IMG/VR virus record: IMGVR_UViG_3300043331_000168
Location: 1-58,673 of that record
DNA length: 58,673 nucleotides
Strand: one strand, 5' to 3'
DNA from: a virus
In this document: in pieces, positions 29,753 through 58,673 of the stretch
Numbering within the stretch: position 1 is the stretch's first letter
Layout of the letters: each line of letters starts with the position of its first letter
Made by a program: the position numbers and the translations under genes
The notes under the pieces: model-generated
What the model was told of the DNA's origin: nothing
Seen by the model: the letters and a program-made list of their open reading frames with translations, nothing else
Databases searched by the model: none

Positions 29753-32098
29753 ATGTTCACGCCAGACGACCCGAGGCACCAAGCGCCCCTCGAGAGCGGG
29801 CTCGAAGACATGCCTCCGTCCGAGGAAGTTCCGCTTCGGTTTGCCGAGACCACCGAGCATCTCGATTGGCTGTCGATCGCGCGGGCCGTGTACCAAGCAT
29901 CCGACGATTGGTTCTCGACGTCGCTGCGCGTCATGCTCGAACGGTCGCTATCGAACTTTCGCGGCGTGCATCCGCCAGGCTCGAAGTACCACCAGGAGCA
30001 GTACCTCAAAAAGTCGCGGCTGTTCCGACCGAAAACGCGCGGCGCGATTCGACGCGGCGAAGCGGGCCACGCAATCGCGTTCTTTTCGACGCAGGACATC
30101 GTTCACTGCACGGCGCGCGACGAGACCGACGAGCGCCAACTGCTCGCGGCCGAGATCCACAACGAGCTGGTCAACGAGCGCTTGAACGACCCGATGCAGC
30201 ACTGGTTCAAGACGCTCATCGGCGGCGCGCAGGATGCCATGACGATCGGCACCGTGATCTCGAAGCAGTGCTGGGACTTCGAGATGGCCGAGGTCGAGGT
30301 TGACTACGAGTACGAGGAGCTGGACATTGAAGGGCGCACGATCGTGCAACAAGAGCGCGCCATGGAGAGCCGCGTGCTCGTCGACCGACCGAGCTGCAAG
30401 ATCATCCCGATCGAGAACTTCCGACTCGACCCCGCGGCCGACTGGCTCGACCCGGTCAACAGCTCGCCCTATCTGATCGAGATGCAGCCTACGTATATCT
30501 ACGTAATTCAGGAGCGCATTTCTAAGGGTAAGTACCTACCCGTCGCGCGCGATCTCATGGGCGCGGCGATCCACCAGGATTGGGATTCGATTCGCAAGGC
30601 TCGTGAAGGCGGCGCACGGCTCGATAAGTACGACAACGATAGCTCGGTGCGCGATCACATGATCGCCTGGGTGCATCATCACATCGTGCATCGGTGGGGT
30701 GTCGATTGGGTCTACGACACGCTCGGGACCGAGATCATGCTCAGCAAGGAGCCCATTCCGATCGAGGACTACTACGCGCACTCGCACACCTATAACCGCC
30801 CGTATGTCATGGGCAACGCGATCATCGAGGCACACAAGAATTACCCAGGCGGCATCCCGCAGCTCATCGAGGACCTTCAAGAAGAAGCGAACGACATCGC
30901 GAACTTGCGCATCGACAACGTGCGCGCCGCGCTCAATCCGCGGTGGATTGTGCGCCGCGGCTCCGGCGTCGACGCGCGCGGACTGATTCGCAACGTGCAT
31001 TCCGGCGTGACGTATGCGACGAACGTGGCCAACGATATTCGCGAGCTACGCGCGCAGGACGTGACGCGCTCGGCCTACGAGGAGCAGAACCGCATCGACC
31101 TCGACATTGATGGGGTCATAGGCACATTCTCTGGAAGCTCGATCCAGGCGAACCGCTCGGTTGGCGAGACCGTCGGCGGCATGAACTTGCTCTCGGCCGA
31201 CGCCAACAAGCTCGAGGAGTACCTGATTCGCACGGTCACCGAGACCTGGGTCGAAGGGGTCATGCGCCAATTCGTGGCCATGGAAGCGGCTTACGAGAGC
31301 GACGACAGAATACTCTCCGTCGTGGCTTCGCGGCTTAAAACCGACGTCGACACCGTGCTCGACGTGATCCGCGAGCCCATCAATGTGCGTTGTAACGTCG
31401 GCTTCAACGCGACCAACCCGCAAAAGCGCATCGAGAAGCTCTCGATCGGGCTCGCTACGATCTCTGCCTACATGCCGGACGTGATTGCGGAATTGGACCG
31501 GCGCGAAGTCGTCAAAGAAGTATTCGGGGCGATCGGGCACAAAGACGGCAGCCGATTCTTTCCTGGGCTGTACGATGAGGAGCAGGACCCGCGCATCGTG
31601 GCGCTCGAGCAGCAGATCCAGCAGCTTCAGCAGCTCCTACAGCCGAAGCTCCTCGAGTCGCAGACCAAGGTCGAGGTCGCGAATATCGGCGCCGAGACCA
31701 AACGCTTCGAGATCATCACGAAGAACGATCTCGAGATGCTCAAGCTCAGGCACAGCACGACCCAGCTCGCCTTGCAGAGCCGGCTCGATCAAGTCGATGC
31801 GCAGCTCAAGATCGAGGAGAGCGACCGCAAGCGCCGCGAGCTGTATCTCGCGCGCGAAGCGCTCTCGCACGAGATCCAGGAGTCGAACCGCCGCTTCAAC
31901 CTCGAGGTCGCGAAACTCCGGCAGCAGGACCAAAGCGAGAAGCGCGAACTCAAGGCCAAGGGCGGCGAGAAAGGCGCGCCAAAAACCAACGGCAAGGGCG
32001 GCCCGTCGGCCATGGCGATCCCCGGCACCGCGGGCGTCATGGCGCGCGACCAGTTCGGCATGGTGCCTGGGAAAAGCGACGGCATCGCGCCGCCGTGA
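29753..32098 (+). CDS. Portal protein (podovirus type)
   Basis: 781 residues, the size of podovirus portals. N-terminal DWFSTSLRVMLERSLSNFRG; the clip/stem region around 130-240 with HWFKTLIGGAQDAMTIGTVI; conserved HAHTYNRPYVMGNAI-like part near 345; and a long C-terminal coiled coil (600-730) that should form the barrel. It makes the dodecameric DNA gate of the capsid and docks TerL. It is the first of the head genes, upstream of scaffold and capsid. Confidence 0.85.
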   Translation: MFTPDDPRHQAPLESGLEDMPPSEEVPLRFAETTEHLDWLSIARAVYQASDDWFSTSLRVMLERSLSNFRGVHPPGSKYHQEQYLKKSRLFRPKTRGAIRRGEAGHAIAFFSTQDIVHCTARDETDERQLLAAEIHNELVNERLNDPMQHWFKTLIGGAQDAMTIGTVISKQCWDFEMAEVEVDYEYEELDIEGRTIVQQERAMESRVLVDRPSCKIIPIENFRLDPAADWLDPVNSSPYLIEMQPTYIYVIQERISKGKYLPVARDLMGAAIHQDWDSIRKAREGGARLDKYDNDSSVRDHMIAWVHHHIVHRWGVDWVYDTLGTEIMLSKEPIPIEDYYAHSHTYNRPYVMGNAIIEAHKNYPGGIPQLIEDLQEEANDIANLRIDNVRAALNPRWIVRRGSGVDARGLIRNVHSGVTYATNVANDIRELRAQDVTRSAYEEQNRIDLDIDGVIGTFSGSSIQANRSVGETVGGMNLLSADANKLEEYLIRTVTETWVEGVMRQFVAMEAAYESDDRILSVVASRLKTDVDTVLDVIREPINVRCNVGFNATNPQKRIEKLSIGLATISAYMPDVIAELDRREVVKEVFGAIGHKDGSRFFPGLYDEEQDPRIVALEQQIQQLQQLLQPKLLESQTKVEVANIGAETKRFEIITKNDLEMLKLRHSTTQLALQSRLDQVDAQLKIEESDRKRRELYLAREALSHEIQESNRRFNLEVAKLRQQDQSEKRELKAKGGEKGAPKTNGKGGPSAMAIPGTAGVMARDQFGMVPGKSDGIAPP

Positions 32099-32280
32099 AT
32101 AAGCTCGTGATGACGTGTCTCAAGTGCGGGCACGAATGGCGCGATTGGCCTGGGGAATCGGGGGAATCAGCGAAACAGGTGAACGGCAGCGTTCGCGGCT
32201 GCCCGTACTGCCACTCGCTGCATTGGAAGGCCGAGGAGGATAGGTGGGACGAGACGCACACGAAAACGATCCGCCCATAA
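32095..32280 (+). CDS. Small zinc-ribbon protein
   Basis: 61 residues from a GTG with GTGA overlap on the portal stop. CLKCGHEWRDWP and GCPYCHSLHW form a C-x2-C ... C-x2-C zinc ribbon. Such small ribbons are often encoded among phage head genes. Function unknown. Confidence 0.75.
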   Translation: MNKLVMTCLKCGHEWRDWPGESGESAKQVNGSVRGCPYCHSLHWKAEEDRWDETHTKTIRP

Positions 32281-32621
32281 GCGCCGAGCCCGTCGACGAA
32301 ATTGAGGCCGCGCTCGCCGAGCGGCTGGGCGATGAGCGATACCTGATCGAGCTGGTCCGGTTCGGCCTCGACACCGAGAAGTTCGTCAACACGAATCCGA
32401 TCGGGAAGTACCTAGTCTCTCGGGGCGAGACAGAACTCAACGAAGCGGTTAAGAAGTTGCTTGACTTGAAAGATTTGCAGAGTGAGGATGCGCGCATCGC
32501 ACATGGCGAGGCTAGGGTGGCTCTCATGGTTCTTCGATGGCTCGATGAAGCCATTACGCGCGGCGTAGAGTCCGAGCGGCTCATGAGCGCCCGCGATCTC
32601 ACGGAAACCCCTCATGGGTAA
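32244..32621 (+). CDS. Hypothetical head-module protein
   Basis: 125 residues from a GTG at 32244, overlapping the ribbon gene by 37 bases. Mostly helical (LIELVRFGLDTEKFVNTNPI, then VKKLLDLKDLQ). Similar helical proteins sit between portal and scaffold in podovirus-like phages. No confirmed role. Confidence 0.7.
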   Translation: MGRDAHENDPPISAEPVDEIEAALAERLGDERYLIELVRFGLDTEKFVNTNPIGKYLVSRGETELNEAVKKLLDLKDLQSEDARIAHGEARVALMVLRWLDEAITRGVESERLMSARDLTETPHG

Positions 32622-33912
32622 ACCCGCCGTTCTTCCGACCGCGGCCGACGAGCCGGCCCCCGCGGCCGACGTTCCTGGCGCGGAGGCCGAGCCAGAAGCG
32701 CCCGCTCCGCAGGCGCCAGCCGCAGATCCGGCGGCAGCTCCGACTCTCGACCCGAACGCGATCAACGCGGCGCTCGAGAAAGACCGCGCCGAGCGGCGCG
32801 CGGCGGCTCAGCGCGACAACCCGCGTGAGGACATCTACGCGCGCGCGGCCGCGAAGCGAGCGGCCGAGGTCGAGCAATCGCTCGAGGATCCCGAGGTCCA
32901 AAACCTCAACCTGCTCGCCGGGCATCCAGTCGAGACTGGCGAAATCACAACCGTAGCCGAGAGTCGGGCCGCCGCGGCTCCGACGTCAGACCCGGAGACC
33001 GCGGCGCCTCCCGATAATGCCGGCAAGATCAAGATTGCCGTGTACGGCGAGGAAGCCTTCGTCACCGAGGACGAAGTGCGCACGGCCGGCATCGCGACGC
33101 TCCAGAAGGAGCGCGGCGCCGATTATCGGCTCTCGCAGGCCGCCCAGGCGGAACAGCGAGTCAGGACCTACCACCGCGACCTCGACGCTTATCGCGATCG
33201 ACTGGTGGCGATGGAGAAAGATTTGAAAGCGGGCAAGATGCCCACTGTGAAGGATGCGTCAACCGCGGCCGCGCCACCCGCATCGGGCGCGACGGTCACG
33301 GTCGACGAGAAGCGGATCGCCGAGGGAGCCAATCGGTTCGCCGAAGCGATCTATCGAGGCGACCCGAAAGAGACGGCGGAAGCCATCAGGTCGCTACTCA
33401 CCGACGTTGCTCAGGGGCGCGCTGCTACCCCTCCGGCGGTGGACGTGGATGCGGTGGCGGAAGTCGCCGCGGCCAAGGTGGATGAGCGCCAAGTGAAGCG
33501 GTCGGCCGAACAAGATCGGCAGAGGGTCAACGAGACCTTCGCCGGCGAGTTCAAGGCTGTACACGACCATCCTGGTGCGTTTGCTGTGGCTCAAGCTCAC
33601 TTCACCGTGCTGCGCCAGCAGGAGGCCAATAGGGGCCGCCCGCTCGAGGAGCTGGCACGCGAAGCAGGGCAAGAGGCACTCAAGCGCTACCCGGAGCTGC
33701 GCGCGCCGGACGAGCAACCTACTCCAGAAAAACCGCGCACACCGACTCCCGCGGACGCCCTCCAGGGCCGTCGGGAGCTGAAGAAGCGCACCGTCGTCCG
33801 GCAGCCGACCGTCACCGCACGAGCACCCGCCCCAACCGCGCCTGTCTTTCCGTCGGGTAAAGACTACGTGGCGCAGCTTCGGAGAAACGCCGGGTTACCC
33901 CCGACGCCCTAG
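32614..33912 (+). CDS. Scaffold-like protein
   Basis: 432 residues. It is low in aromatic residues, rich in Ala, Pro, Glu and Lys, with a Pro/Ala-rich N-terminus (residues 10-60) and long helices (GADYRLSQAAQAEQRVRTYH). The C-terminus is basic and proline-rich (PTPADALQGRRELKKRTVV), as expected of a scaffold that binds the coat. It lies directly before the capsid gene. Homology is not certain, but composition, size and place agree. Confidence 0.75.
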   Translation: MGKPAVLPTAADEPAPAADVPGAEAEPEAPAPQAPAADPAAAPTLDPNAINAALEKDRAERRAAAQRDNPREDIYARAAAKRAAEVEQSLEDPEVQNLNLLAGHPVETGEITTVAESRAAAAPTSDPETAAPPDNAGKIKIAVYGEEAFVTEDEVRTAGIATLQKERGADYRLSQAAQAEQRVRTYHRDLDAYRDRLVAMEKDLKAGKMPTVKDASTAAAPPASGATVTVDEKRIAEGANRFAEAIYRGDPKETAEAIRSLLTDVAQGRAATPPAVDVDAVAEVAAAKVDERQVKRSAEQDRQRVNETFAGEFKAVHDHPGAFAVAQAHFTVLRQQEANRGRPLEELAREAGQEALKRYPELRAPDEQPTPEKPRTPTPADALQGRRELKKRTVVRQPTVTARAPAPTAPVFPSGKDYVAQLRRNAGLPPTP

Positions 33913-33918
33913 AAGCGC

Positions 33919-33934
33919 GCCTCTAAACGGAGGC
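33919..33934 (+). promoter_or_regulatory. Short hairpin over the capsid ribosome site
   Basis: GCCTC (33919-33923) pairs with GAGGC (33930-33934), covering the GGAGG ribosome site of the capsid gene (start 33942). The stem is only 5 bp, so any effect on translation would be mild. Confidence 0.35.
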
Positions 33935-33941
33935 AGCGAAA

Positions 33942-34934
33942 ATGTCAGGTCAAGTTTGGGCCGTCAATTCACTCGGCGGCTTCATGTATTCCGACGAATT
34001 GTCGAACGTGCTGCGCACGGCGCTCCAGCCCGTGGTGCGGTTCCGGCAGTTCTGCGACGCGAAGGACGCGATCGACAAGGGGCTCGGCAAGGGCAACAAG
34101 TTCCACTGGGACGTGTTCTCCGAGGTTCAAGACGGTGGTGGCGAGCTGGTCGAAACCGAGGCCATGCCCGAGACCAACTTCACGATCAGCCAAGGCGAGC
34201 TGACGATCACCGAGTTCGGCAATTCCGTGCCGTACACCGGCAAGCTCGACAACCTGTCGAAGCTCCCGGTCTCGGAGATCATCCACAAGGTGCTCAAGAA
34301 CGACGCGAAGATGACGCTCGACGGGTACGCGCACGCGCAGTTCGACGCCACCCCGGTGACGGTCGCTCCGACGGGCGGTAACTCGCCGACGGCCGTCACG
34401 TTCGAGGAGGGCGGCTGCACGATCACGAACGCCGTCGCGTTCGGCACCGGCCACGTCAAGGCGATCGTCGACGGCATGAAAGAGCGGAAGATCCCGCCTT
34501 ACATGAACGACGACTACTTCGCCGTCGCCTGGCCGACGACGTTCCGGCCCATGAAGAACTCGCTCGAGACGATCCACCAATACGTCGAGACGGGCTTCAC
34601 GAAGATCATGAACGGCGAGATCGGCCGTTACGAAGGCACGCGGTTCTGCGAGCAGACCAACGTCGCCAAGGGCGGCGCCGTCGACTCGCTCACGTGGAAC
34701 TTCCGCACGCCGGACCCGTGGAATGGTGGGCTCTCGGACTGGATTTTCTTCCTCGGCGAAGACACGGTCGCAGAAGCGCTCGCGATCCCCGAGGAAATCC
34801 GCGGCAAGATCCCCGGCGACTACGGTCGGTCGAAGGGCGTGGCTTGGTACTATCTCGGCGGCTTCGGCATCGTCCACGGGTCGAGCGGCGTCGCGAGCCA
34901 GGCGCGTATCGTCAAGTGGGAGAGCGCGGCCTAA
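33942..34934 (+). CDS. Major capsid protein, N4-gp56-type
   Basis: 330 residues, with GGAGG eight bases upstream. The N-terminus has VVRFRQFCDAKDAIDKG and GKGNKFHWDVFSE, then TEAMPETNFTISQGELTITE and FGNSVPYTGKLDNLS, which is the core of the N4-gp56/P22-type coat family. The C-terminal half has YYLGGFGIVHG. It forms the shell of the head. Codon use and GC are like its neighbours. Confidence 0.88.
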   Translation: MSGQVWAVNSLGGFMYSDELSNVLRTALQPVVRFRQFCDAKDAIDKGLGKGNKFHWDVFSEVQDGGGELVETEAMPETNFTISQGELTITEFGNSVPYTGKLDNLSKLPVSEIIHKVLKNDAKMTLDGYAHAQFDATPVTVAPTGGNSPTAVTFEEGGCTITNAVAFGTGHVKAIVDGMKERKIPPYMNDDYFAVAWPTTFRPMKNSLETIHQYVETGFTKIMNGEIGRYEGTRFCEQTNVAKGGAVDSLTWNFRTPDPWNGGLSDWIFFLGEDTVAEALAIPEEIRGKIPGDYGRSKGVAWYYLGGFGIVHGSSGVASQARIVKWESAA

Positions 34935-42607: not shown

Positions 42608-42810
42608 TGCTGTTGGGGGATTACGGGCCGGGTCGGTTTCGGCCCAAAGCGCTGTCTAGCAGTGATGAGCGAGTCAGGACGACTCAAGCGCTGCTCGCGA
42701 TGTGGAACCGCAAATGCCTTGCTTTGAAGTCATGGCGTCGCATAATCGCCGCCCAGGAGAGCCACGATGTCGACGACAGCGGAGGACATGCGCGAGCTGC
42801 TACCGGCTGA
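42607..42810 (+). CDS. Possible small protein before the ejection genes
   Basis: 67 residues; start shares one base with the previous stop, but it overlaps the next gene by 44 bases. Moderately basic helix (TTQALLAMWNRKCLALKSWR). A second frame at 42702 is also open. Support is weak. Confidence 0.35.
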   Translation: MLLGDYGPGRFRPKALSSSDERVRTTQALLAMWNRKCLALKSWRRIIAAQESHDVDDSGGHARAATG

Positions 42811-44224
42811 GCCGTCTCCGCCGCCGCAGGTCACGCCAAATCTACCCGCTCCGCCTGGAGTGGTCGTCAACAATCCGCCCACCCAGCAAGCGAGCCTGAC
42901 GACGCCGACGGTCGTGCCGACCTCGCCGACGCCGCTCGCGACTGTTTCGGACGCCGAGACGACGCGCGGCCAACTCAACGAGTTGCTCGCGGCCGGCAGC
43001 CCATACATCGAGCAGGCGCGCGGCGGGGCGATCCGCTATGCCGCCTCACGCGGGTTGCAGAACTCCTCGATTGCGGCCCAGGCAGGCGAGCAGGCGGCGA
43101 TCTCGGCTGCGCTGCCGATCGCAAGTGAGACCGCAGCGGCGCACGAGCGCCGGACGCTGTCGAACTTGGGGCACGTCCAACGGCTTACGGAGCAAGCGCA
43201 GGCCGGAACGATCAACGAGCGCCTATCCGGCATCGAGCACGCCCAGCGACTCATCGAGCAAACCCAGGCCGGCGACATCAACTCCCGCCTTCAGCTCGAA
43301 CGGTTCGGGTTCGATTCAAAGCTGTCGGCGCAAGAAAACGTGCAGCGCCTCCAACAGCTCGCTGCTCAGGGCGATCTCGATGCGCGCGCACGGCTCGAGC
43401 AATTCAACTACGCGACGCAGCTCGCCTCCCAGGGGCACCAGTTCGAGGTTGCGCTTTCCGGGATCCAGCACACGCAACGGCTACTTGAGCAAGCGCAGGC
43501 TGGCGACATCAATAGCCGCTTGCAGCTCGAGCGCTTCGGCTTCGACCAGCAACTCTCGGCGCAGGACAACCTTCAACGTCTCCAGCAGATGGCCGCCCAG
43601 GGCGACATCAATTCTCGGTTGCAGCTCGAGCAGTTCAACCACGCGAGCCTGCTCGCCGACAAGGAGGCAGGACTCGCGCTCACTCTCGAGGACCGGCGGA
43701 TTCAGGGTCAGATCGAGCTGCTCGGCCGCGAGTATCAGAACGCGCTCGGGCTCAATGCGCAGGACCAGGCGAATTGGATCGACCGGCAAAACCTCACGCA
43801 TTCACAGACGCTTACGCAAATCAACGCGCAGATCGCGGCGGCTGCCGAGGCGGATCGCTCGATCGACGTGCAGCGGGCTTCGCAGTCGCTCCAGTCTCAG
43901 TATCTCGCGTCGATTTCCAACCGCCAGAACATGGCGACGCAGGAGATCACGTCGATCTATCAAACGCAGGGGCTCACGCCGCAGCAGCAGCAAGCGGCCG
44001 TGGCCGATGCGATGCGCCGGCTCGACTCAGACATTGCAGCGCTGCAAGCGTACTACGCGCAATCGCCGCTGTGGGACTCGAATTGGGGCGGGCCGGCGCC
44101 ACCAACCCCGCAACCGATTCCAACTTCGCCTCCTGGCACTGGGCAGCCGCCGATCACGCCGGCGCCGAACTACTACAACTATCCAGAATACTATCCGGGG
44201 TACTTCCCACCGTACACGTACTAG
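42767..44224 (+). CDS. Repeat-containing ejection/internal virion protein
   Basis: 485 residues, with AGGAGAG upstream. Pro/Val-rich N-terminus, then Gln/Ala-rich helices. A 77-residue unit beginning QRLIEQTQAGDINSRLQLER recurs as QRLLEQAQAGDINSRLQLER (231 bp period in DNA, starting near 43265 and 43496), with a shorter related repeat before and after. The C-terminus is Pro/Tyr-rich (ITPAPNYYNYPEYYPGYFPP). Such long helical, repeated proteins form the channel or core ejected with podovirus DNA. Confidence 0.7.
   Translation: MSTTAEDMRELLPAEPSPPPQVTPNLPAPPGVVVNNPPTQQASLTTPTVVPTSPTPLATVSDAETTRGQLNELLAAGSPYIEQARGGAIRYAASRGLQNSSIAAQAGEQAAISAALPIASETAAAHERRTLSNLGHVQRLTEQAQAGTINERLSGIEHAQRLIEQTQAGDINSRLQLERFGFDSKLSAQENVQRLQQLAAQGDLDARARLEQFNYATQLASQGHQFEVALSGIQHTQRLLEQAQAGDINSRLQLERFGFDQQLSAQDNLQRLQQMAAQGDINSRLQLEQFNHASLLADKEAGLALTLEDRRIQGQIELLGREYQNALGLNAQDQANWIDRQNLTHSQTLTQINAQIAAAAEADRSIDVQRASQSLQSQYLASISNRQNMATQEITSIYQTQGLTPQQQQAAVADAMRRLDSDIAALQAYYAQSPLWDSNWGGPAPPTPQPIPTSPPGTGQPPITPAPNYYNYPEYYPGYFPPYTY
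43265..43726 (+). repeat. 231-bp direct repeat inside the ejection gene
   Basis: Two diverged copies, starting near 43265 and 43496, encode the 77-residue unit of the ejection protein. The copies differ at many third codon positions, so the repeat is old and kept at protein level. Confidence 0.7.
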
Positions 44225-44235
44225 GGAGACCAGCC

Positions 44236-44403
44236 ATGCCATTGACCCCAAAGGGCGAAAAGATCATGCGGAAGATGAAGAAAACCTACGGTGACGACGA
44301 GACAGCCGAGCGCGTGTTCTACGCTTCAGCCGAGTCCGGGCGTATCACGGGTGTCCACGCAGAAGACAAACCCGCGCACAAGCGCAAGGAAAAGAGGGAA
44401 TGA
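44236..44403 (+). CDS. Small conserved phage protein
   Basis: 55 residues from the ATG at 44236, with AGGGAG upstream. The MPLTPKGEKIMRKMKKTYGD start, FYASAESGRITGVH and a Lys/Arg-rich tail are widespread in tailed phages near the internal virion proteins. Function unknown. Confidence 0.75.
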   Translation: MPLTPKGEKIMRKMKKTYGDDETAERVFYASAESGRITGVHAEDKPAHKRKEKRE

Positions 44404-44870
44404 TCCGCAAGGCGCGCCCAGGCGATCTCCCGCAAGTGCTCGCGCTGTGCGAGCGCCTACGCGCGCGCATCGAGACCTATCCGAACGCGCCGCTCGACCG
44501 CAATTCGATCGTCCACGTATTCGGGCGCTGTATCAGCGCCGCAACCTGTCTTGCTCTCGTCGTCGTTGACAATAACGAGCGGGTAACGGGCCTCCTGCTC
44601 GGGGTCACGCAAGAGCTTTGGTGGAGCCGCGCGAAGGAAGCTACCGATTTGATTCTCCACGCCGAGCAGCCCGGCACCGGGATCGCGCTTGCGCGCAGGT
44701 TCGTGCGCTGGGCGTGGACCGTGCCGAGGGTTGCTGTCGTGACGTTGGCGCAGTCGAGCGGGCTCGATGATGGCCGCTGGGGCGAGGCGCTCCAAGCGAT
44801 CGGCTTCAGGCAGATCGGTGGGCTCTACCAGCTCGCGCGATCGGTAGCGCTCAGGGAGGAGGCGGCATGA
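44400..44870 (+). CDS. GNAT-type acetyltransferase
   Basis: 156 residues. MIRKARPGDLPQVLALCERL is the usual GNAT strand 1-helix 1 start, then VTGLLLGVTQELWWSRAKEA for the central strands, GTGIALARRFVRWAW as the acetyl-CoA-binding region, and a C-terminal ALQAIGFRQIGGLYQ. Phages often encode such a stand-alone transferase near internal proteins; the target is unknown. Confidence 0.78.
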   Translation: MIRKARPGDLPQVLALCERLRARIETYPNAPLDRNSIVHVFGRCISAATCLALVVVDNNERVTGLLLGVTQELWWSRAKEATDLILHAEQPGTGIALARRFVRWAWTVPRVAVVTLAQSSGLDDGRWGEALQAIGFRQIGGLYQLARSVALREEAA

Positions 44871-45595
44871 GCGGGATCGTCAAGGGCATCAAAAAGGTCT
44901 TCAAGAAGGTCGTCAAGGTCGTCAAGAAGGTCTTGCCGTATGCGGTCGCGGCCGCGGCTATCTACTTCAGTGCGGGGCTCGCAGGAGCGGCGTTCGCGCC
45001 CGGCTCTTTCTTGGCGACTATGCCGGGGATACCAGCCGCCGCAAGTGCGCTCGGCATCGGCGGCGCGGCGGCCGCCGGTGCAGCAACAGCCGCCGCACCG
45101 AGCCTCGCTACAGTTGCGGCACCGAGCTTTTCGCAAGCGGCTGGGTTGATACTCCCGGCTACATGGACGACCAGCGCCGGGACAGCCGCTATCGCGCCAG
45201 CAGTAGCGTCGGGCGGGAAATTCGCCACGCTCATCGGCAAGGTGTTCGGTGGCGCGCGCAGCGCGCTCGGTTCGATGTCGATGAGCGAGAAGCTCTTGCT
45301 GGCCTCGATGGGCTCGAACGTGCTCTCAGAGATGCTCGGACCTACGCCGCGCGAGCAGGCGCGAGACATCGCGATCGAGCAAGCGAAGTTCCGTGGTGCG
45401 TTCTACGGCATGGACGAAAGCGGAGCTTCGGCGCCGGCGCCGCGCCGAGATCTGTTCGCGGTCGCGCGGCCGCCGAGCGTGGCCATGAGCCCGCCATCGG
45501 TCGCGAAGCCATCGGTCGATCAGCCGTTGCGCGGCCCAGGAACGCAGAGTTTCGATCTATTCGACGAGCAGAAGCCGAGGTCGCTCTATGCCTGA
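44867..45595 (+). CDS. Membrane-active internal virion protein
   Basis: 242 residues. The N-terminus is an amphipathic basic helix (IKKVFKKVVKVVKKVLPYAV), then a hydrophobic Ala/Gly-rich region (residues 25-85, LAGAAFAPGSFLAT), then a helical C-terminus (EQARDIAIEQAKFRGAFYGM) and a Pro-rich tail. This layout matches ejection proteins that insert in the host membrane. Confidence 0.7.
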   Translation: MSGIVKGIKKVFKKVVKVVKKVLPYAVAAAAIYFSAGLAGAAFAPGSFLATMPGIPAAASALGIGGAAAAGAATAAAPSLATVAAPSFSQAAGLILPATWTTSAGTAAIAPAVASGGKFATLIGKVFGGARSALGSMSMSEKLLLASMGSNVLSEMLGPTPREQARDIAIEQAKFRGAFYGMDESGASAPAPRRDLFAVARPPSVAMSPPSVAKPSVDQPLRGPGTQSFDLFDEQKPRSLYA

Positions 45596-46250
45596 GCTGA
45601 TGATGGAGGAGCCAGCTCCTACCGGGCAGCCCGCGGGTCCGCATCCGAGCGGTTTGCCGGTAGGCATGGAGCCTGGCTCATTCGATGACGTCGACGAGAA
45701 CTACGTCTCGCCGGAGGAGCAAGCGCAGTACGATCAATTCGTGACCAAGGCGTTAAAGCTGATTCATACGAAGGGATCGCAGCGCGCTTTGCTCCAGCAG
45801 CTCAATCAGCCGAAAATGAAGGTTTACGAGGCCGTTGGGCGTGCCGCCGCCATGATGGCTATGACGATCGCCGAGCAAGCCGAGGCGTCGGGCGCGAAGC
45901 TCTCTCCAGACGTGGTCTTTCACGGGACCGCGGATTACATCGTCCCGGAGCTGTTCGAGGTCGGGCAGGCCGCGAAGATCATTCCCATGGAGGACGAGCA
46001 GAATCAGATCAACATGGCCTTTCTCGAGGCGCAACGTGTCTACGGTGAGGAGTTGCTCAACAGCCCCGACGGGCCGAAGCTCCAGCAGGAGGCCCAGGAC
46101 TACTACTCGCACCAAGTGGCGCGCGAGATGGACGAGGGCGGTGACCCCGATCAATTCCGCGAGGGCATCCTCGGCGTAGCGCGCGAGGATCCGCTCGCTT
46201 CGGCGATTTCGTCAGAGCTTGCGAACCGGAAGGCAGCCAATGGCGCGTGA
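45588..46250 (+). CDS. Hypothetical internal/structural protein
   Basis: 220 residues. Acidic, helical (EEQAQYDQFVTKALKLIHTK, RAAAMMAMTIAEQAEASGAK). It lies between internal virion genes and is likely part of the ejected set. No family is recognised. Confidence 0.68.
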   Translation: MPELMMEEPAPTGQPAGPHPSGLPVGMEPGSFDDVDENYVSPEEQAQYDQFVTKALKLIHTKGSQRALLQQLNQPKMKVYEAVGRAAAMMAMTIAEQAEASGAKLSPDVVFHGTADYIVPELFEVGQAAKIIPMEDEQNQINMAFLEAQRVYGEELLNSPDGPKLQQEAQDYYSHQVAREMDEGGDPDQFREGILGVAREDPLASAISSELANRKAANGA

Positions 46251-47145
46251 GCGGCTGTCTCGTGCTTTGAGCGCGCTCTCCCAAGGGTTCGCCGGTATGG
46301 CCGAGATTCGGATGCAGCGCGAGGCTGCGGAGCTGGAGCTGTTGCGCCAGCAGAGTCTCGAGGATTTGCGCCATAAGCGCGAGACCGATCTCGAGACGCG
46401 CCGCCAGCAGTTCGAAACCACTATGGCACGCGACGAGCGCACTTTCCGCACCGGCCTGGCCGAGCGCGAGGAGCGCATGGCAGGCGAGCGCCTGACACGC
46501 GAGGAGCGGCTCGCGAGCGAACGGTATACGCGCGAAGATCGCCGGCTCGTCGAGAACGAGGCGCAGGACCGCATCGCTGCGCTCACGAAGCGCATTCAAG
46601 AAGTCACCGACGATCGGCGCGCCGCCGAAGCCGAGTTCCAGGACCAGGCCGTGCTCGACGGCATGGACGCTGAGATCAACGAGGCGCTCGATCAGATGCG
46701 CTCGATCAAGGCGCGGATGCTGCTCGCGCTCAAAGACTTAGGCGATCCGCGCTACAAAGACGAGGGCATGAACAATCTCTTGCTGGCCGCCGGCTACAGC
46801 CGCGAGGAGATCCAGGACGAGCTGCGCCGTCGGTCGTCAGAGACTTCGTTTGCAGATGCGGACGAGGAGACCTTCGAGGACCCGACCGCGATTGCGACTC
46901 AGCCGCAAGGCCCGCCGCAAATGCCGCCGTCGAATGAGCTAATGCCGCCTTCGCCGCCGGCTGTATTGCCGGACATGACGAAGGCTGGGCGCGGGCGGCG
47001 CGCAACGAAATACGGTGCTCTGACAGAGGGCGTGCGCGACTTGTTCCAGCGGCGCGTCGACGACCCGCTCGCGCGCGGGCGCATTCGTCCAGAGGACGAG
47101 AACCGCCAGCGCAGGCAAGACTACCGCACCGGCGGCGGCTTCTAA
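46240..47145 (+). CDS. Coiled-coil ejection-type protein
   Basis: 301 residues from the ATG at 46240. Residues 5-120 form one very long charged coiled coil (QREAAELELLRQQSLEDLRH, ERLTREERLASERYTREDRR), followed by a helical part and a Pro-rich C-terminus. It is directly before the giant polyvalent protein and probably packs with it in the virion. Confidence 0.7.
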   Translation: MARERLSRALSALSQGFAGMAEIRMQREAAELELLRQQSLEDLRHKRETDLETRRQQFETTMARDERTFRTGLAEREERMAGERLTREERLASERYTREDRRLVENEAQDRIAALTKRIQEVTDDRRAAEAEFQDQAVLDGMDAEINEALDQMRSIKARMLLALKDLGDPRYKDEGMNNLLLAAGYSREEIQDELRRRSSETSFADADEETFEDPTAIATQPQGPPQMPPSNELMPPSPPAVLPDMTKAGRGRRATKYGALTEGVRDLFQRRVDDPLARGRIRPEDENRQRRQDYRTGGGF

Positions 47146-47147
47146 CC

Positions 47148-50100
47148 ATGGCCACGCGCCCCAGCGACATCGGGCGCGATGTGTTCGACGCCTTGACTAT
47201 TGGGCGCCGAGATCCCGCCGCTTCGTTTGACGCCGAGCGCGACCTCTCGCGCGAGGACTTCTATCTGCTCACGACGCCGGGGCGCCGGCGCCGGCAGCCA
47301 GAGCCTCCACCTGTGCTCGAGGAGGAGGAGCCGGGCGGCCTCGGCTTTGGAGACTACGCGCGCTCGATCATGACTGGCGGAGCCTCGCTCGCGCAGAGCT
47401 TCGGCTGGCTGACGCGCATGATCGGCGCCGAGCAAATCGGGACCGCGATCGAGGACCTCGGGCGCAATGCCGTTGACTACTGGAATGCGGGGCTCTCAGA
47501 CGAGGCGAAGGACGCGCTATCGCGCGAGTTCGTCCGCAAGAACGCAGAGACCGGCGAGTGGGAATGGGGCGACGCAACCCTGCACACGGTCGGGCTCATG
47601 GGAGCCCAATCGTTGCTAGGCACGGCGGCTGGCATCGGCATCGGCGGTGCTGTGACCAAGGGATTGCAGCTCGGCACGGCGGCCACGATGGCGCGGGCGC
47701 CGGCTGCCGCTTCCGCCGGCATCAAGGACGTGCTCACCTTGTTCGCGAACCCGTTTGGGCGCACGGCGCTACAAGCGGCCGCTCGAGCTGGCTCCACCCA
47801 GGCGCTCGCCAAGCTCAATCTCATCAACCGTGTGCTCGGCGCCGCGGGCTTCGGCATCGGCGAGGGGCTCGTCGGCGGAACGAGCGCGGCAGTCTCAGTC
47901 GAGAATGCGATTCGCTCGCTGCCGGTTGAGAAGCTGCTCGCGAATCCGCGCTACGCCGAGATATTCAACTCGACCGACGAGAGCATGTCCGAGCTTGAGC
48001 GCCATCAATACGCGACCGACACGATCGCGAAGGAAGCGGCGAGCCAAGCGGGTTGGCAGAGTGGCCTGCTGACGGGCCTACTCGGCGCGCCGATGGGCGC
48101 CTACTTCGGGCAGATCCTCGGCCGCAGCGGGCGGCTCGCGTCGACGCGGCTGCGTTCGATCCTCGTCGGCGCCGCCGGCGAGGCAGGCCAGGAGTTCTTG
48201 CAGTCCGGCGGCGAGTCGCTGATCTCGGGCATGACGCTCGAGCGCGTGAGCGGCGAGAACATGGAACTGTTCTCGACCGCGTTGAATCAAGCGATTGCCG
48301 GCTTGGCCGCCGGCGGCACGCTCGGTGGCGCGATCGGTGGCGTCGACTTCCAGCGGCCCGTACAACCCAAGAGACAGCCCGACCGGCAGACCGCGCTCAA
48401 GAATGCAGCGATGCGCGCAGCCACGGCGGGCGCCGATCGCGAAGCCGTCATCGGCGTCGTGCGCGCCTCCGATCAGCCGCTCATGGAGCGAATCGCCACG
48501 CTCCGCAAGCTCGAGGCCGAGGCCAACGAGCAATTCGTGGTGCCGGCGCCTCCGGCCAGGACCGAGCCCACGCCGCTCGACGTCGTCACGCCCATCGACG
48601 AGCAAGTGCACCGCGCCGCGGCCTTGAGCCCGCTCAACGATCTACCGACGCCCACGCCGGAGCAGATCGAGTCGGAGAACTACGAGGTTGCGCGCGTTGC
48701 CGGCAAAGACTTAGGGATGCGCTCGCTCGATTTCGTCGTCGAGTACCCGGCCGGGTCGGAGCGCAACGGGCTCACGATGGCGGCCCACTACGGCCGGATT
48801 CCGGGCGTAATCGGCGGCGACGGCATGTCGCTCGACTTCATGTTGGGCAAGCACCCGGAGTCGCGCACGGTCTATCTCTACCATCATCTCGACGCGCAAG
48901 GCCGTTTCAAGCAGCACAAGGCACTTGTCGGCATGGACCGCGCCGAGGCGGAAGCCTCGCTCGAAGCGTTCTATAAGCGTTCTGGTGGGCCGCGCGGGCC
49001 GATTGTCGAACTGACGCCAGAACAATTCGAGCAGTGGGCCGCGAGCGGCCAAACCGGCCGACCGCACCCGGACGCCGGCATCACGGCCGAGCGCCGGTTC
49101 GAGGGCGCCGAGACCCGCGCCATTACACCGTCAGGCGGCGCGGTAGGGGCTCGCTACGCGCTCGTCGAGCTGGGCGATCTCATCTCGAGCCACACGATCA
49201 CGGGCCGCGCGAATACCAACTTCCCGCAGGAGCTTCAGCCTCGAGACCGGAGCCGCGCCGGGTTGCGGCAGTGGATTGTCGAGACGGCCGAACGCTTCGA
49301 GCCAGCGCTCGCCGTCGAGGGCGTCTCCGCCGGCGAGGGAGCGCCCATCGTTGGGCCGGACATGATCGTGGAGTCCGGCAACGGGCGTGTCGCAGTCATC
49401 ACGAAGCTCTATCTCGATCGCTCCGACAAGTATCGCGGCTACCTCGAGCAGAACATCGAGAAGTTCGGGCTCAGCAAAGAGCAGCTCGACAAGCTCGCCC
49501 AGCCGATTCTCGTGCGGGTTCGGCAGGAGCCGATGGACATGGCCGCGCGGACCAAGTTCGCGCACGAGGCCAACCGGCCGCAGATCGCGACATTCTCCGC
49601 GACCGAGCAGGCGAACGCTGATGCGCGCACCCTGACCAACGACGAGATCGCGCTATTTCAGCCGACGGCCGAGGGCTCGGTGCTCGGGCTTTCGAATGAG
49701 CGCTTCGTGCGCGCCTTCGTCTCGAAACTCCCGGCCGCCGAGCGTGCGGGGCTCATGACCGCCGAGGGGCAGCCGACCCGGCAGCTCGCGAACCGGATCC
49801 AGGCCGCGATATTCGCGCGCGCCTACCAGGACGATCGGCTCTTGACGCTCATGGCCGAGGAAGCCGACCCGGACGTGCGCAATATCGTGGCTGCTTTGAC
49901 CTCGGCCGCGCCGACGTTCGCGCGGGCGCGCGCCGCGGGCGCGCTGGCGCAGGCCGACGTCGTGGAGCCGCTGCTCGGGGCGGTCGAGATCGTTCGGCAA
50001 ACCCGCGCGCGCGGGCAGTCCGTCGAGGAGTACCTCGGCCAGCAAGGCTTGTTCGAGTCGATCCCGCCCGAGGTCGACCGAATGGCGCGCTTCATCGACA

Positions 50101-53100
50101 AGAACATTCGGTCGTCGAAGCGCATGGGCGAGGCGTTCACGTCGATGGCCGGATTCCTCGAGTCCGAGGCGAAACGCCGCACTACGGGCGCCCTGTTCGG
50201 CGAGGAGCCCAAGCTCGATGTCGGGCTCGCGATGCAGGCCGCGAACCAGCAGATGGAGCGCACCTACGGTGCCGGCCAGGCGCAGAGCGCGATGTTTAGC
50301 CGACCGCTGCCCGAGTTCACGCGCGAACAGCTCCGGCAAGGCTTTCGTGGTGAAGCCTATCGCGGCCGAGAGTTCGTCGGGCAAGTCTACATGGTCGATG
50401 GGCGCGCCTTCGTGGCCAACGTCGAGAACGGTGTGGTGCGCTCGGCAACCGAATATGCGCCGAGTCAATTCAAGCGCTCAGGCGGCTATGACGCGCCAGG
50501 CGGGCGCGTGGACAAGTGGCAGATCGAAGATGCCGCTTTTCAAGTTCGCGAAGGCGGAGCCACCTACTCGGGCGTCGGCGAGGCTGCGCTCAACCAGCTC
50601 GATATGTTCGCCGAGGCCGAAGCTCCGCCGGCAGATAGCGTGCTGCGGTTCGTGCGCGCCAGGGGCGTGCGCACCGGCACGTTTCGGTCCTCCGTTCGCA
50701 AAGTGCAAACGCCGGAAGAAGCGGCGCACGTGCTGGCTCCGCTGCGCAAGGCCGCCCAGGAGCAGATGACCGCGCTCGTGACCGACGAGAACGGTAAGCC
50801 GCTCGCGGTGCTGCGGCACACGATCGGCACGCCGGACGCCGGCCCGGTGGTCCGCGGAATGGTGCTCGGGCAGGTGCTCAACATACCGGGCGCCAAGAAT
50901 GTCTGGTTTGCTCACAACCATCCCGGCGGGAACCCAAGCCAAACCTCGGCTGACCACGGGACAACAATCGCGCTCGATCGCTTGAGCGCTGGGACCGGGC
51001 TCAACGTCCGGGGCATGATTACGCTGGCTGCCGGCTCGAACCAGGCGACGTTCTTCGAGCCGCGCATTGAGCGCGAAATAAGATTCGATATTCCGGCTGG
51101 CCCGCGTGCTGCGACCGGCGCGGCCGAGATCCCGCACATCGGCGAGCGGCGCTTTACCCGGAGGCTCGGAGACGCGCAGCGCGAGAAGCTCACGCAAGAG
51201 AACGTCAACCAAATGCTCGCGGTCGCCGCGCCAGGCGGCGGGTCCGGGCTCATGCTGTTCGACGCGCGCCTGAATCCGACCGGCTGGATACCGATGACGG
51301 CCGCGGAGATGGGGCGCTTGCGCATCGGCTCTCAACCTAGCGCGGCGCGTGTCCTCCGCGAGATCGAGCGTACCAACGCGACCCGCGCGCTCATTCGCAC
51401 GAAAGACGCCTCGGAACGTGACGCGGCTTCCAATCTCATGAATTTCTTGGCGTGGGCGCAGGTCGACGTGTTCGACATTCTGCAAGGCGGCCGCGCTTTG
51501 AGCCGAGAAGCTCAAGGGCTCCCGCTCCTGGGTCCGGTCTATCGCTCGATTGGGCGGCCGCAAGCGCCACCGGACACGCCCACGAATCCGGTCGACCCGA
51601 GCTTGAGCCAGGAGGCGAAAGCCGCGGAGCTGCACCGGCTCGGGCTCGAGAACTTGGCTTGGGTCGAGCCGATCGTCGAGGAGATCAACGCGACCTTCGG
51701 TGTGCGCGGGCCAAGATACCGCGAGGACTACATCAAGAGCGAGCGCAGCATCATCGGCAAGGCGAACCGGCCGGGCATCTTGGCCGAAAAGCCGTGGTGG
51801 GACGTCGAGCACCTACGCGATAGCTTCCGCTTCCGTAGCGTCGTTGCGTCGGCTGATCAGGTCGAGCCGGTTTTCCGGGCGTTCCTCGAGAGGGCCGAAG
51901 CGTCCGGCCACCCGGTTCGGGTCATCAAGACCGACATCGACAAGCTCGCGCGGCCGAAAGACTGGGGCTGGCGCATGTTACCGTTCGATCTCGTGATGCC
52001 GAATGGGCAGCTCGCCGAGTATTACATCACGTTCCCGGAATTGGCCGACGCCAACGAGGGGGTCCGCTACGCCGGCAAGTACAACGGCAACGGCGGACTC
52101 CACAAGACCTTCGAGAATTGGCGCTATCGTGACGTAAACACGCTGTCCGAGGAGGAGCGGCTTGCCTTCAACGAAGACAAGACGATCAGCAAGACCGGAT
52201 ATGACTCTGCGTGGGAGGAGTTTCTAGGGCGAACGGGTCAGACGGAGGAAGCGGTTTTTGCTTCGGCGAGGAGGCTCTCAGCGGTCGCCGAGTCATTTTC
52301 GACGGCGAAATCCTCGTCTATTTCTTCGCCCGTGAGCGGCATGGGGAACTTGCCGGCCGGGAACCAAGTGCCGCCGACTTTGAGTGCCATGAACGCGCCG
52401 TCGGATACGAATATCCGCGCGCCTTCGCGTTCTCTTGCGACCAATGCGCCCATCGACGCCAGTCTAGCACAGCACGTCGAGGAAGTCCGCCAATGGCTAA
52501 GCCCATCGCTCGCGCATTTAGCCCCGGTCATCCGCGCCAACGTCGTCGCGTCTCCGCAGGATCTCCCGGACCCGACCGCGCCGCCCGACGTCGAGGGCGC
52601 GTATACCCAGGACGGGCAAGTGTGGTTCGTCGCGAGCAACCTTCCGACCCAGGAGCGTGCCCAGGCCGTCGGCCGGCACGAGGTCTTCGGCCACATGGCG
52701 ATCGAGCGTAACCCGAAGTTCAAGAAGCAGCTCGAGCGTGTCGAGGATGCGATCCGCACGGGCGGGCTCAAGAATGAAGTCGCCCAGGTCCGCGCACGTC
52801 AGGGGCTCTTGCCGCGATCGACCGAGGCCCGCGAGGTCATCGCGCTGATTGCTGAAAAGGGCGGGCGCTCGCCAATGGGCGACGTGCTCGTGTCGACGAT
52901 CCGCGCGATCGGGCTCGACCTCGGGTTCGACATGAACCTCGAGCGGCGCGATCTCGAGCGGCTCGTCCGGGTCGCGGCGAAGGGCTTGTTGCACGACGCG
53001 CGCATGGCGGCGAACTTCCGAGCCGCAATGAAGATGGCGGAAGTGACAGCGCTCGAGAAAGGCGAGCCGACCGACGAGGAGATCGTCGCCGCGATCGAGG

Positions 53101-53348
53101 CGCTCTATCCGAACGATGCGATCGACTTGACCGCGCAAATCCGGCCGCAGACCGACTACTATCAGCGCTACGTCACGGAGACGCGGCCAGCCGATATTCA
53201 GGACTTCGGCGATTTGCAGCTCGCGGAGCAGCTCGAGGTCGAGGGGGAGGGGGCCGTGGAGGTCACGCAACGCGCGCAACAAGCGTTTGAGCAGGCGCGC
53301 GATCGAGTCAAGATGCTGGAGTCGTTGCAAGAATGCCTAGCACAGTAA
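47148..53348 (+). CDS. Giant polyvalent protein (DdrB-ParB, JAB, RelA/SpoT-like, metallopeptidase)
   Basis: 2066 residues. 1-510: hydrophobic, glycine-rich and helical segments (LLGTAAGIGIGGAVTKGLQL) typical of ejection proteins. 515-640: pyrophosphatase-like polyvalent domain (GRIPGVIGGDGMSLDFMLGK, FKQHKALVGMDRAEA). 650-930: DdrB/ParB-like domain (GARYALVELGDLISSH, IVESGNGRVAVITKLYLD). 1200-1300: JAB/RadC-like site HNHPGG at 1256-1261 with H1256, H1258 and D1269 (Thr1266 replaces the usual Ser). About 1505-1690: RelA/SpoT-like NTase fold (DYIKSERSIIGKANRPG, LRDSFRFRSVVASADQVEP). 1800-1950: zinc peptidase HEVFGH at 1844-1849. Such polyvalent proteins are injected with phage DNA to act on the host or its defences. 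Confidence 0.78.
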   Translation: MATRPSDIGRDVFDALTIGRRDPAASFDAERDLSREDFYLLTTPGRRRRQPEPPPVLEEEEPGGLGFGDYARSIMTGGASLAQSFGWLTRMIGAEQIGTAIEDLGRNAVDYWNAGLSDEAKDALSREFVRKNAETGEWEWGDATLHTVGLMGAQSLLGTAAGIGIGGAVTKGLQLGTAATMARAPAAASAGIKDVLTLFANPFGRTALQAAARAGSTQALAKLNLINRVLGAAGFGIGEGLVGGTSAAVSVENAIRSLPVEKLLANPRYAEIFNSTDESMSELERHQYATDTIAKEAASQAGWQSGLLTGLLGAPMGAYFGQILGRSGRLASTRLRSILVGAAGEAGQEFLQSGGESLISGMTLERVSGENMELFSTALNQAIAGLAAGGTLGGAIGGVDFQRPVQPKRQPDRQTALKNAAMRAATAGADREAVIGVVRASDQPLMERIATLRKLEAEANEQFVVPAPPARTEPTPLDVVTPIDEQVHRAAALSPLNDLPTPTPEQIESENYEVARVAGKDLGMRSLDFVVEYPAGSERNGLTMAAHYGRIPGVIGGDGMSLDFMLGKHPESRTVYLYHHLDAQGRFKQHKALVGMDRAEAEASLEAFYKRSGGPRGPIVELTPEQFEQWAASGQTGRPHPDAGITAERRFEGAETRAITPSGGAVGARYALVELGDLISSHTITGRANTNFPQELQPRDRSRAGLRQWIVETAERFEPALAVEGVSAGEGAPIVGPDMIVESGNGRVAVITKLYLDRSDKYRGYLEQNIEKFGLSKEQLDKLAQPILVRVRQEPMDMAARTKFAHEANRPQIATFSATEQANADARTLTNDEIALFQPTAEGSVLGLSNERFVRAFVSKLPAAERAGLMTAEGQPTRQLANRIQAAIFARAYQDDRLLTLMAEEADPDVRNIVAALTSAAPTFARARAAGALAQADVVEPLLGAVEIVRQTRARGQSVEEYLGQQGLFESIPPEVDRMARFIDKNIRSSKRMGEAFTSMAGFLESEAKRRTTGALFGEEPKLDVGLAMQAANQQMERTYGAGQAQSAMFSRPLPEFTREQLRQGFRGEAYRGREFVGQVYMVDGRAFVANVENGVVRSATEYAPSQFKRSGGYDAPGGRVDKWQIEDAAFQVREGGATYSGVGEAALNQLDMFAEAEAPPADSVLRFVRARGVRTGTFRSSVRKVQTPEEAAHVLAPLRKAAQEQMTALVTDENGKPLAVLRHTIGTPDAGPVVRGMVLGQVLNIPGAKNVWFAHNHPGGNPSQTSADHGTTIALDRLSAGTGLNVRGMITLAAGSNQATFFEPRIEREIRFDIPAGPRAATGAAEIPHIGERRFTRRLGDAQREKLTQENVNQMLAVAAPGGGSGLMLFDARLNPTGWIPMTAAEMGRLRIGSQPSAARVLREIERTNATRALIRTKDASERDAASNLMNFLAWAQVDVFDILQGGRALSREAQGLPLLGPVYRSIGRPQAPPDTPTNPVDPSLSQEAKAAELHRLGLENLAWVEPIVEEINATFGVRGPRYREDYIKSERSIIGKANRPGILAEKPWWDVEHLRDSFRFRSVVASADQVEPVFRAFLERAEASGHPVRVIKTDIDKLARPKDWGWRMLPFDLVMPNGQLAEYYITFPELADANEGVRYAGKYNGNGGLHKTFENWRYRDVNTLSEEERLAFNEDKTISKTGYDSAWEEFLGRTGQTEEAVFASARRLSAVAESFSTAKSSSISSPVSGMGNLPAGNQVPPTLSAMNAPSDTNIRAPSRSLATNAPIDASLAQHVEEVRQWLSPSLAHLAPVIRANVVASPQDLPDPTAPPDVEGAYTQDGQVWFVASNLPTQERAQAVGRHEVFGHMAIERNPKFKKQLERVEDAIRTGGLKNEVAQVRARQGLLPRSTEAREVIALIAEKGGRSPMGDVLVSTIRAIGLDLGFDMNLERRDLERLVRVAAKGLLHDARMAANFRAAMKMAEVTALEKGEPTDEEIVAAIEALYPNDAIDLTAQIRPQTDYYQRYVTETRPADIQDFGDLQLAEQLEVEGEGAVEVTQRAQQAFEQARDRVKMLESLQECLAQ

Positions 53349-57853: not shown

Positions 57854-58673
57854 ATGGCCCTGTTCACCGTCGATCTCGGACAGGGCGGGACGGGCTTCGA
57901 GGTCGTCCTATCTAGCACTGGCGCAGTCCCATCACTCACGACGCTCTACGATCCACCTTACGGTGGCGTATTCCGCGAGGAGATCCAACTCCGCGGGCGC
58001 AGGTATCGGCAGCTCCGCTACTACCCGCCGCTGTTCTCCGACGCGGCGGGTGCCACAGGTCTTACGGCTGACGCTACCACGCAAAGCCAGGTCTCCGCTG
58101 ATGCCAGCGTCACGCAGCACCATGTTCTAGCCGCCACGGCAAGCGCCCAGGCGCAGACGAGCGCCGCGGGGGCCTTGACGCAGCATCACGTTCTCGCTGC
58201 CGACGCGACCACCCAAGCGCAAACGTCCGAAGCTGCGGACGTAAGCGCTGGGGTCGATCTCACGGCCGACGCCACGTCGCAAGCGCAGACGAGCGAGGCC
58301 ACGGCGGTTACGCAGCACCATGTCGCCGCCGCGACCGCGACGACGCAGAATCAGACTTCTGCGGCCGCGGCCTTGACGCAGCACCACGCGCTCGAGGCGG
58401 GCGCGACTTCGCAGGCACAGACCTCGGCTGCCGCCCAACTGACGCAGCATCATCAGCTCGCCGCCGACGCGAGCGAGCAATCGCAAACGTCGCAAGATGC
58501 GACGCTGAGCGTTCAAGGCCAACTGGTTGCTGACGCGACGACGCAGAGCCAGGCTTCCGAGGCCGCGGTCCTAACGCAACACCACGCGCTGGCTGCCGAT
58601 GCGACGACCCAGGCCCAAACCTCAGAGCCAGCCGAAATCATTGTGACTGTCATGGCAGAACTGCCGGGCAGCG
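57854..58673 (+). CDS. 22-residue-repeat protein, 3' end cut by window
   Basis: At least 273 residues from the ATG at 57854. Residues 1-67 (MALFTVDLGQGGTGFEVVLS, FREEIQLRGRRYRQLRYYP) are normal. From about residue 70 to 260 there are eight full copies and one partial copy of a 22-residue unit, consensus LxADATTQxQTSEAAxLTQH with a final H and one variable residue, 66 bp in DNA. The copies differ from each other, so the array is not a recent duplication. It then leaves the repeat. Such Thr/Gln/Ala repeats form extended fibres. The gene runs off the right edge. Confidence 0.72.
   Translation, partial: MALFTVDLGQGGTGFEVVLSSTGAVPSLTTLYDPPYGGVFREEIQLRGRRYRQLRYYPPLFSDAAGATGLTADATTQSQVSADASVTQHHVLAATASAQAQTSAAGALTQHHVLAADATTQAQTSEAADVSAGVDLTADATSQAQTSEATAVTQHHVAAATATTQNQTSAAAALTQHHALEAGATSQAQTSAAAQLTQHHQLAADASEQSQTSQDATLSVQGQLVADATTQSQASEAAVLTQHHALAADATTQAQTSEPAEIIVTVMAELPGS
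58058..58650 (+). repeat. 66-bp tandem repeat in the terminal gene
   Basis: About nine units of 66 bp encode the 22-residue repeat. Several units share QHH (CAGCACCA or CAGCATCA) at the same place and differ elsewhere, so sequence has drifted while length is kept exactly. Confidence 0.75.

Follow-up and report, generated by a model that had tools for sequence, protein, structure and literature searches.

A RelA/SpoT-fold domain with an altered acceptor site lies between a second JAB-like domain and a zinc metallopeptidase in a DdrB-type phage polyvalent protein

We analyzed a viral DNA stretch of 58,673 bases (hereafter the window, which is the entire virus record IMGVR_UViG_3300043331_000168), centering on the 2066-residue protein P0001 encoded on its plus strand (47148..53348, an exact open reading frame, ORF, with an ATG start). 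P0001 is a phage polyvalent protein of the DdrB type, joining several unrelated enzymatic domains in a single chain that is encoded by a phage (the record holds terminase, portal and capsid genes). The computed domains run in the order InPase (pyrophosphatase-like, residues 505–631), DdrB-ParB (651–1051), RadC-type JAB (1174–1296), a second JAB-like domain termed JAB2 (1331–1477), a RelA/SpoT-fold domain (hereafter Rel, ~1488–1712) and zinc metallopeptidase (1814–1903); a preliminary description of this DNA had named a pyrophosphatase-like, a DdrB-ParB, a JAB/RadC, a RelA/SpoT and a zinc peptidase domain, all of which are present, and had rightly classed the chain as a polyvalent protein. Polyvalent proteins bearing the alarmone synthetase fold are already known; what is new here is the RadC-JAB2-[Rel]-peptidase arrangement, together with an altered acceptor site in Rel.

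Membership of residues ~1488–1712 (51609..52283, plus strand) in the RelA/SpoT fold and superfamily is confirmed by profile searches, a predicted structure and the residue pattern. The Bordetella phage PHB04 protein ATI15652.1 forms a bridge, weakly matching the Rel part of P0001 in a translated search and matching PF04607 (RelA_SpoT) at 4.4e-7, over the curated cut-off; further relatives were found on phage contigs (L003, L121, L017 and L076). A profile made without the window sequence (from PHB04, L003, L121 and L017) and run against 12,863 ORFs plus 38,589 shuffled ORFs recovered L076 at 2.3e-8 and the window at 1.2e-4, with none of the shuffled ORFs reported. Compared with the PDB, a six-sequence Rel profile that includes the window found Tas1 (6ox6) at 6.5e-23, followed by small alarmone synthetases and Rel enzymes. 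An AlphaFold model of the window Rel sequence (predicted local distance difference test score, pLDDT, 78.5; predicted template modeling score, pTM, 0.78) matches structures that include Tas1, RelP, RelQ and CapRel; the top Foldseek ranks hold only alarmone synthetases, CapRel and SpoT/Rel (Tas1 at 4.3e-6), and a second aligner gave Z 14.2 for RelQ (root-mean-square deviation 3.3 over 169 residues) and Z 11.1 for Tas1, with other nucleotidyltransferases at Z ≤9.6. Since no shuffled ORF scored and other folds ranked lower, we rejected chance as the source of the match, and the earlier RelA/SpoT call, made by eye, is right as far as fold and superfamily go. No relatives appeared when viral contigs were scanned with the whole protein or the Rel part alone, nor did a Rel-family scan of genomes find any, and no closer relative was present among 147 genomes from a single bacterial family surrounding G001, which contains L093. 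A viral structure library did contain a 1129-residue “DdrB-like domain-containing protein” matching the Rel model, along with phage proteins of this fold bearing polyvalent names, and we therefore rejected the idea that the window alone combines a DdrB-type phage protein with a Rel-like domain.

The residue pattern of the Rel domain can be read against FaRel2, in which R64, K66, S70, K74, R77, R95, E145 and Q147 grip the donor ATP, D90 binds Mg and Y128 positions the acceptor (PMC11782079). By spacing and alignment, K1530, S1534, K1538, R1541, D1558, R1563 and E1624 of P0001 correspond to FaRel2 K66, S70, K74, R77, D90, R95 and E145, such that the donor ATP and Mg residues are retained except at the positions equivalent to R64 and Q147 (Y1528 and Y1626). 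The K/S/K/R assignment leans mainly on sequence spacing, the K-x3-S-x3-K-x2-R pattern occurring once in P0001 (about 3e-6 per position by composition). On the acceptor side, the YxSxH guanine-acceptor motif of (p)ppGpp synthetases is absent, the window reading GWRMLP; nor does the domain have the features of Apk2/Tas1 (GxN at syn3 plus a MuF or type VI secretion system delivery domain), with W-R-M-L-P at syn3 and no MuF match. With Y replaced by W and neither SxH nor GxN present in the acceptor pocket, (p)ppGpp synthesis is not to be assumed, and we infer from these residues a pyrophosphotransferase that uses ATP and whose acceptor is not settled.

The preliminary description had the phage making or breaking alarmone-like nucleotides at entry. 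The making half is unproven, the donor site being kept and the acceptor site diverged, and the breaking half is not supported: an HD-type alarmone hydrolase was sought in P0001 and rejected, no such domain being found, and the InPase lacks the D560, D588 and E589 equivalents. We consider it improbable that Rel is a (p)ppGpp synthetase setting off a stringent-like response, as that description proposed; the fold does match RelQ and RelP, and alarmone production has been proposed for the RelA/SpoT domains of polyvalent proteins (Iyer et al, PMC5512222), but the guanine-recognizing SxH of syn3 and its preceding tyrosine are missing, and the chain offers no hydrolase domain to break the product. 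That Rel is a true (p)ppApp toxin like Apk2/Tas1, which would deplete the host of ATP or adenine nucleotides on delivery, is also unlikely, if less so. Among solved structures Tas1 lies nearest to the family profile, the phage MuF toxins Apk2 produce only (p)ppApp, from ATP (PMC12226406), and the bridging gene of PHB04 lies directly past the portal, with a small ORF and then a gene resembling HD hydrolases behind it (compare apk2-iapK-aph1); however, Apk2 carries GxN at syn3 where the window reads W-R-M-L-P, and the window genes tested include no hydrolase or immunity gene.

The Rel domain sits, cassette-like, within the stretch that links JAB2 to the peptidase. Among the loci fetched, to which this census applies, 27 giant proteins possess JAB2 and a following peptidase (some near-identical contigs among them); the gap between the two is ≤95 residues in 20 of these (median 64), and spans 337 residues in the window and 455 in L121, with Rel inside both. 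These are the only two giants in which a Rel insert separates JAB2 from a recognized peptidase. L121 (IMGVR_UViG_3300037069_001561) repeats the order InPase, ParB-like, RadC, JAB2, Rel, peptidase, and has an acetyltransferase-like neighbor as well; L076 (IMGVR_UViG_3300024520_000169) follows the order DdrB-ParB, RadC, JAB2, Rel (Pfam RelA_SpoT 1.9e-5, slightly under the Pfam score cut-off) and yielded no peptidase match. Both thus resemble the window in holding RadC, JAB2 and Rel in the same order in one giant, L121 additionally in its InPase and peptidase, whereas both differ from it in size (about 3.0–3.5 thousand residues), in carrying LPD38 and in retaining Y at the Rel acceptor position (GYRD, GYRAVH).

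Several other loci bear on linkers or on Rel-like genes. L124, L156 and L144 have long JAB2-peptidase linkers (239, 371 and 1580 residues) without Rel, possibly housing other cassettes. A free-standing Rel-like ORF of 304 residues is found at L017:20289-21200, about 6 kb past a DdrB giant, and at L003:8324-10534 a ParB-like stretch is followed by a Rel-like domain beside a portal-like gene (ParB and portal read by eye). In PHB04, L001:5020-7285 comprises, directly past the portal gene, the RelA_SpoT protein, then a small ORF and lastly an HD_4 protein with the annotation (p)ppGpp synthetase/hydrolase, a layout like Apk2-immunity-Aph1, with an InPase-like ORF (3.7e-7) nearby at L001:9095-9847.

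Upstream of the cassette, the RadC-type JAB domain (50667..51035, plus strand) matches PF04002 at 1.3e-8 over residues 1187–1287 and keeps the complete E, HxH, D zinc site (E1205, H1256, H1258 and D1269), which is invariant across 51 sequences; T1266 stands in place of the usual S, and the domain model aligns with RadC 2qlc at Z 13.2. JAB2 (51138..51578, plus strand, assigned by profile) lacks HxHP, begins about 30–35 residues past RadC and was found by profile in 69 of 107 RadC-containing ORFs. Its profile aligns with that of RadC over the whole domain (P 1.1e-5, against ≥0.07 when other domains of P0001 served as controls) and the strand/helix order of its predicted model matches the RadC domain, which suggests that JAB2 is a putative degenerate copy of JAB, free of the metal motif. 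Five giants (L152, L146, L145, L153 and L141) each show two JAB2-profile stretches far apart in one chain. The co-occurrence of RadC and DdrB in phages was considered as a peculiarity of the window and rejected, as L028, L076, L080, L102 and others also have both.

The metallopeptidase (52587..52856, plus strand) has no Pfam match in P0001, and falls in a profile family of about 50 domains. It displays the motif HEVFGH at residues 1844–1849 (HExxGH type, with H1844, E1845 and H1849) and E1896 as likely third ligand; the HExxH, the downstream E and the match to the polyvalent-protein peptidase profile together identify it as zincin-like. By analogy with P1 DdrB, this peptidase most likely cleaves its own chain, and the host-protein processing foreseen in the preliminary description is judged less likely. 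The JAB domain, too, was rejected as a deubiquitinase-like host protease, since it belongs to the RadC clade, whose members are not considered ubiquitin-type peptidases (PMC5512222).

The DdrB-ParB, InPase and RadC matches in Pfam are all well above their own cut-offs. The DdrB-ParB core (49098..50300, plus strand) is detected at 2.5e-27 by PF18763 over residues 664–792 and at 6e-128 by PHROG 5143, with PHROG profiles carrying the core on to residue 1051; aligned identities over it are 40% to Acinetobacter phage ABMM1 and 39% to P1 DdrB. Matches to P0001 occur in 345 phage records, all at <60% identity with the best in the DdrB core, and none spans most of the protein. P1 DdrB was identified in the P1 virion head by mass spectrometry (59.5% peptide coverage; PMC9024508), and packaging of P0001 is plausible because the two share the DdrB core; injection is likewise plausible, with the gene order shared with Pseudoalteromonas phage vB_Pun_Y3 as further support for delivery. 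Ahead of these domains lies an Ala/Gly-rich N-terminal region (residues 1–460, 47148..48527, plus strand), of which residues 236–428 match the DarB-like virion protein family PHROG 10089 (4.2e-7). The “ejection-type hydrophobic front” previously assigned to it is weakly supported overall: the DarB-like similarity speaks for it, and the hydropathy is weak (top 19-residue mean 1.29) with no clear transmembrane segment. It is rather unlikely that P0001 is mainly structural, acting in ejection or head assembly with its enzyme-like domains as passengers of little function; the late-gene position, the DarB-like N-terminus and the aid that P1 DdrB gives to DarB entry into the capsid (PMC9024508) would fit such a role, but the RadC and peptidase zinc sites are (nearly) invariant over about 50 diverged relatives.

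The InPase domain (48660..49040, plus strand; PF18823 4.8e-16) has lost the conserved acidic residues of active type I enzymes, carrying the substitutions D560M, D588K and E589Q at columns where an acidic residue is kept in 93–96% of 28 InPase domains. Lacking these three residues, it is probably no longer a pyrophosphatase, and we rejected a working InPase in P0001. Such losses bear on the main rival explanation for Rel, namely that it is a pseudoenzyme which binds ATP or alarmones as a sponge, a sensor or a protein-binding part. We regard this as possible, at somewhat long odds: in the window the acceptor site differs at its Y, S/G, H/N and Q positions, and both InPase and JAB2 have shed catalytic residues, yet seven donor and metal residues remain at the right spacing in Rel, which a drifting domain should not preserve.

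The genomic surroundings are those of late structural genes. Portal and major capsid genes occupy 29753..34934 (plus strand), and the window further encodes a terminase, RecT, YqaJ, a Dam methylase and an SNF2 helicase. An acetyltransferase-like gene (44400..44870, plus strand) matches, at 9e-18, a gene of Pseudoalteromonas phage vB_Pun_Y3 annotated as diamine N-acetyltransferase, and has no Pfam match; three small genes (44867..47145, plus strand) separate it from the polyvalent gene, and vB_Pun_Y3 shares this order of acetyltransferase, three small genes and giant DdrB protein. Elsewhere in the window, 42767-44224 encodes a 485-residue late protein with repeats of the LQLERFGFD...LSAQ type, and an ORF running off the record end (57854-58672) contains Ala/Thr/Gln-rich repeats with LTQHH motifs.

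Polyvalent proteins were described by Iyer et al. (2017), with RelA/SpoT, InPase and DdrB-ParB as phage-type domains and RadC as a conjugative-element type (PMC5512222). P0001 resembles that set (prototype P1 DdrB) in its DdrB-ParB, InPase, RelA/SpoT and zincin-like peptidase domains and its late-gene position, and departs from it in that Rel is a linker insert ahead of the peptidase; moreover, RadC was confined to conjugative-element proteins in that census, whereas P0001 and its relatives place it, with a second JAB, in phage proteins. With Tas1/Apk1 and the MuF toxin Apk2 (PMC12226406, PMC12691689) P0001 shares the fold, its closest sequence-profile and Foldseek match lies among them, and the phage-head association of Apk2 is a further likeness; unlike these it has no MuF domain, no GxN acceptor motif and no immunity gene seen. 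The toxSAS tRNA pyrophosphokinases FaRel2 and CapRel (PMC11782079) have the same fold and donor-site K, S, K, R, D, R, E pattern, but P0001 replaces the acceptor tyrosine with W, has no antitoxin part and is an injected-type protein instead of a toxin–antitoxin module.

On balance, we lean toward a joint reading in which P0001 is a packaged DdrB-type protein with a self-cutting peptidase, a Rel cassette of altered acceptor and an inactive InPase. The protein would be expressed together with the late structural genes; most likely it enters the particle along with the DNA and reaches the host on infection, with DdrB-ParB, the RadC-type JAB, the metal-free JAB2 and the zinc metallopeptidase as its putative working core. 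In keeping with the proposal made for P1 DdrB, the peptidase most likely splits its own chain into individual units, either ahead of delivery or following it. The Rel-fold domain (closest to the toxic Tas1/Apk2 type) forms a cassette within the JAB2-peptidase linker; ATP and Mg are its probable ligands, and it probably passes pyrophosphate on, perhaps to an adenine nucleotide or RNA and not to GDP/GTP, which would alter host metabolism or nucleotide-based defense early in infection. Packaging, self-cleavage, ATP use, acceptor and role are what we infer; domains, their order, the cassette position and the kept or lost residues are computed.

Several points weigh against this joint reading. FaRel2 R64, Y128 and Q147 are replaced by Y1528, W1608 and Y1626, such that activity may be lost, and the stretch of the model holding the K/S/K/R residues has a pLDDT of 52–55. 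The Rel part of P0001 has no direct Pfam match (PF04607 included) and a PHROG match at chance level only, pairwise identities in the Rel family are only 19–24%, and the six rows of the AlphaFold input alignment were picked as Rel-like. No immunity or hydrolase gene appears among the window genes tested, and packaging and cleavage in this phage are drawn by analogy from P1 DdrB.

More tentatively, and with rather low confidence, Rel might be an injected pyrophosphokinase of toxic-alarmone-synthetase ancestry whose W1608-remodeled pocket serves a new acceptor (a defense nucleotide or RNA end) at entry, the RadC-JAB2-peptidase core being a dock for cassettes swapped between phages. With this arrangement, the RadC polyvalent proteins of conjugative elements gain phage counterparts, and the repeated RadC-JAB2-peptidase core, with its exchangeable insert, offers a well-defined module open to testing in giant phage proteins of mostly obscure function. 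Bacteria are known to use alarmone-type enzymes both as toxins and as weapons against phages (CapRel); a phage importing one with its DNA would reverse these roles.

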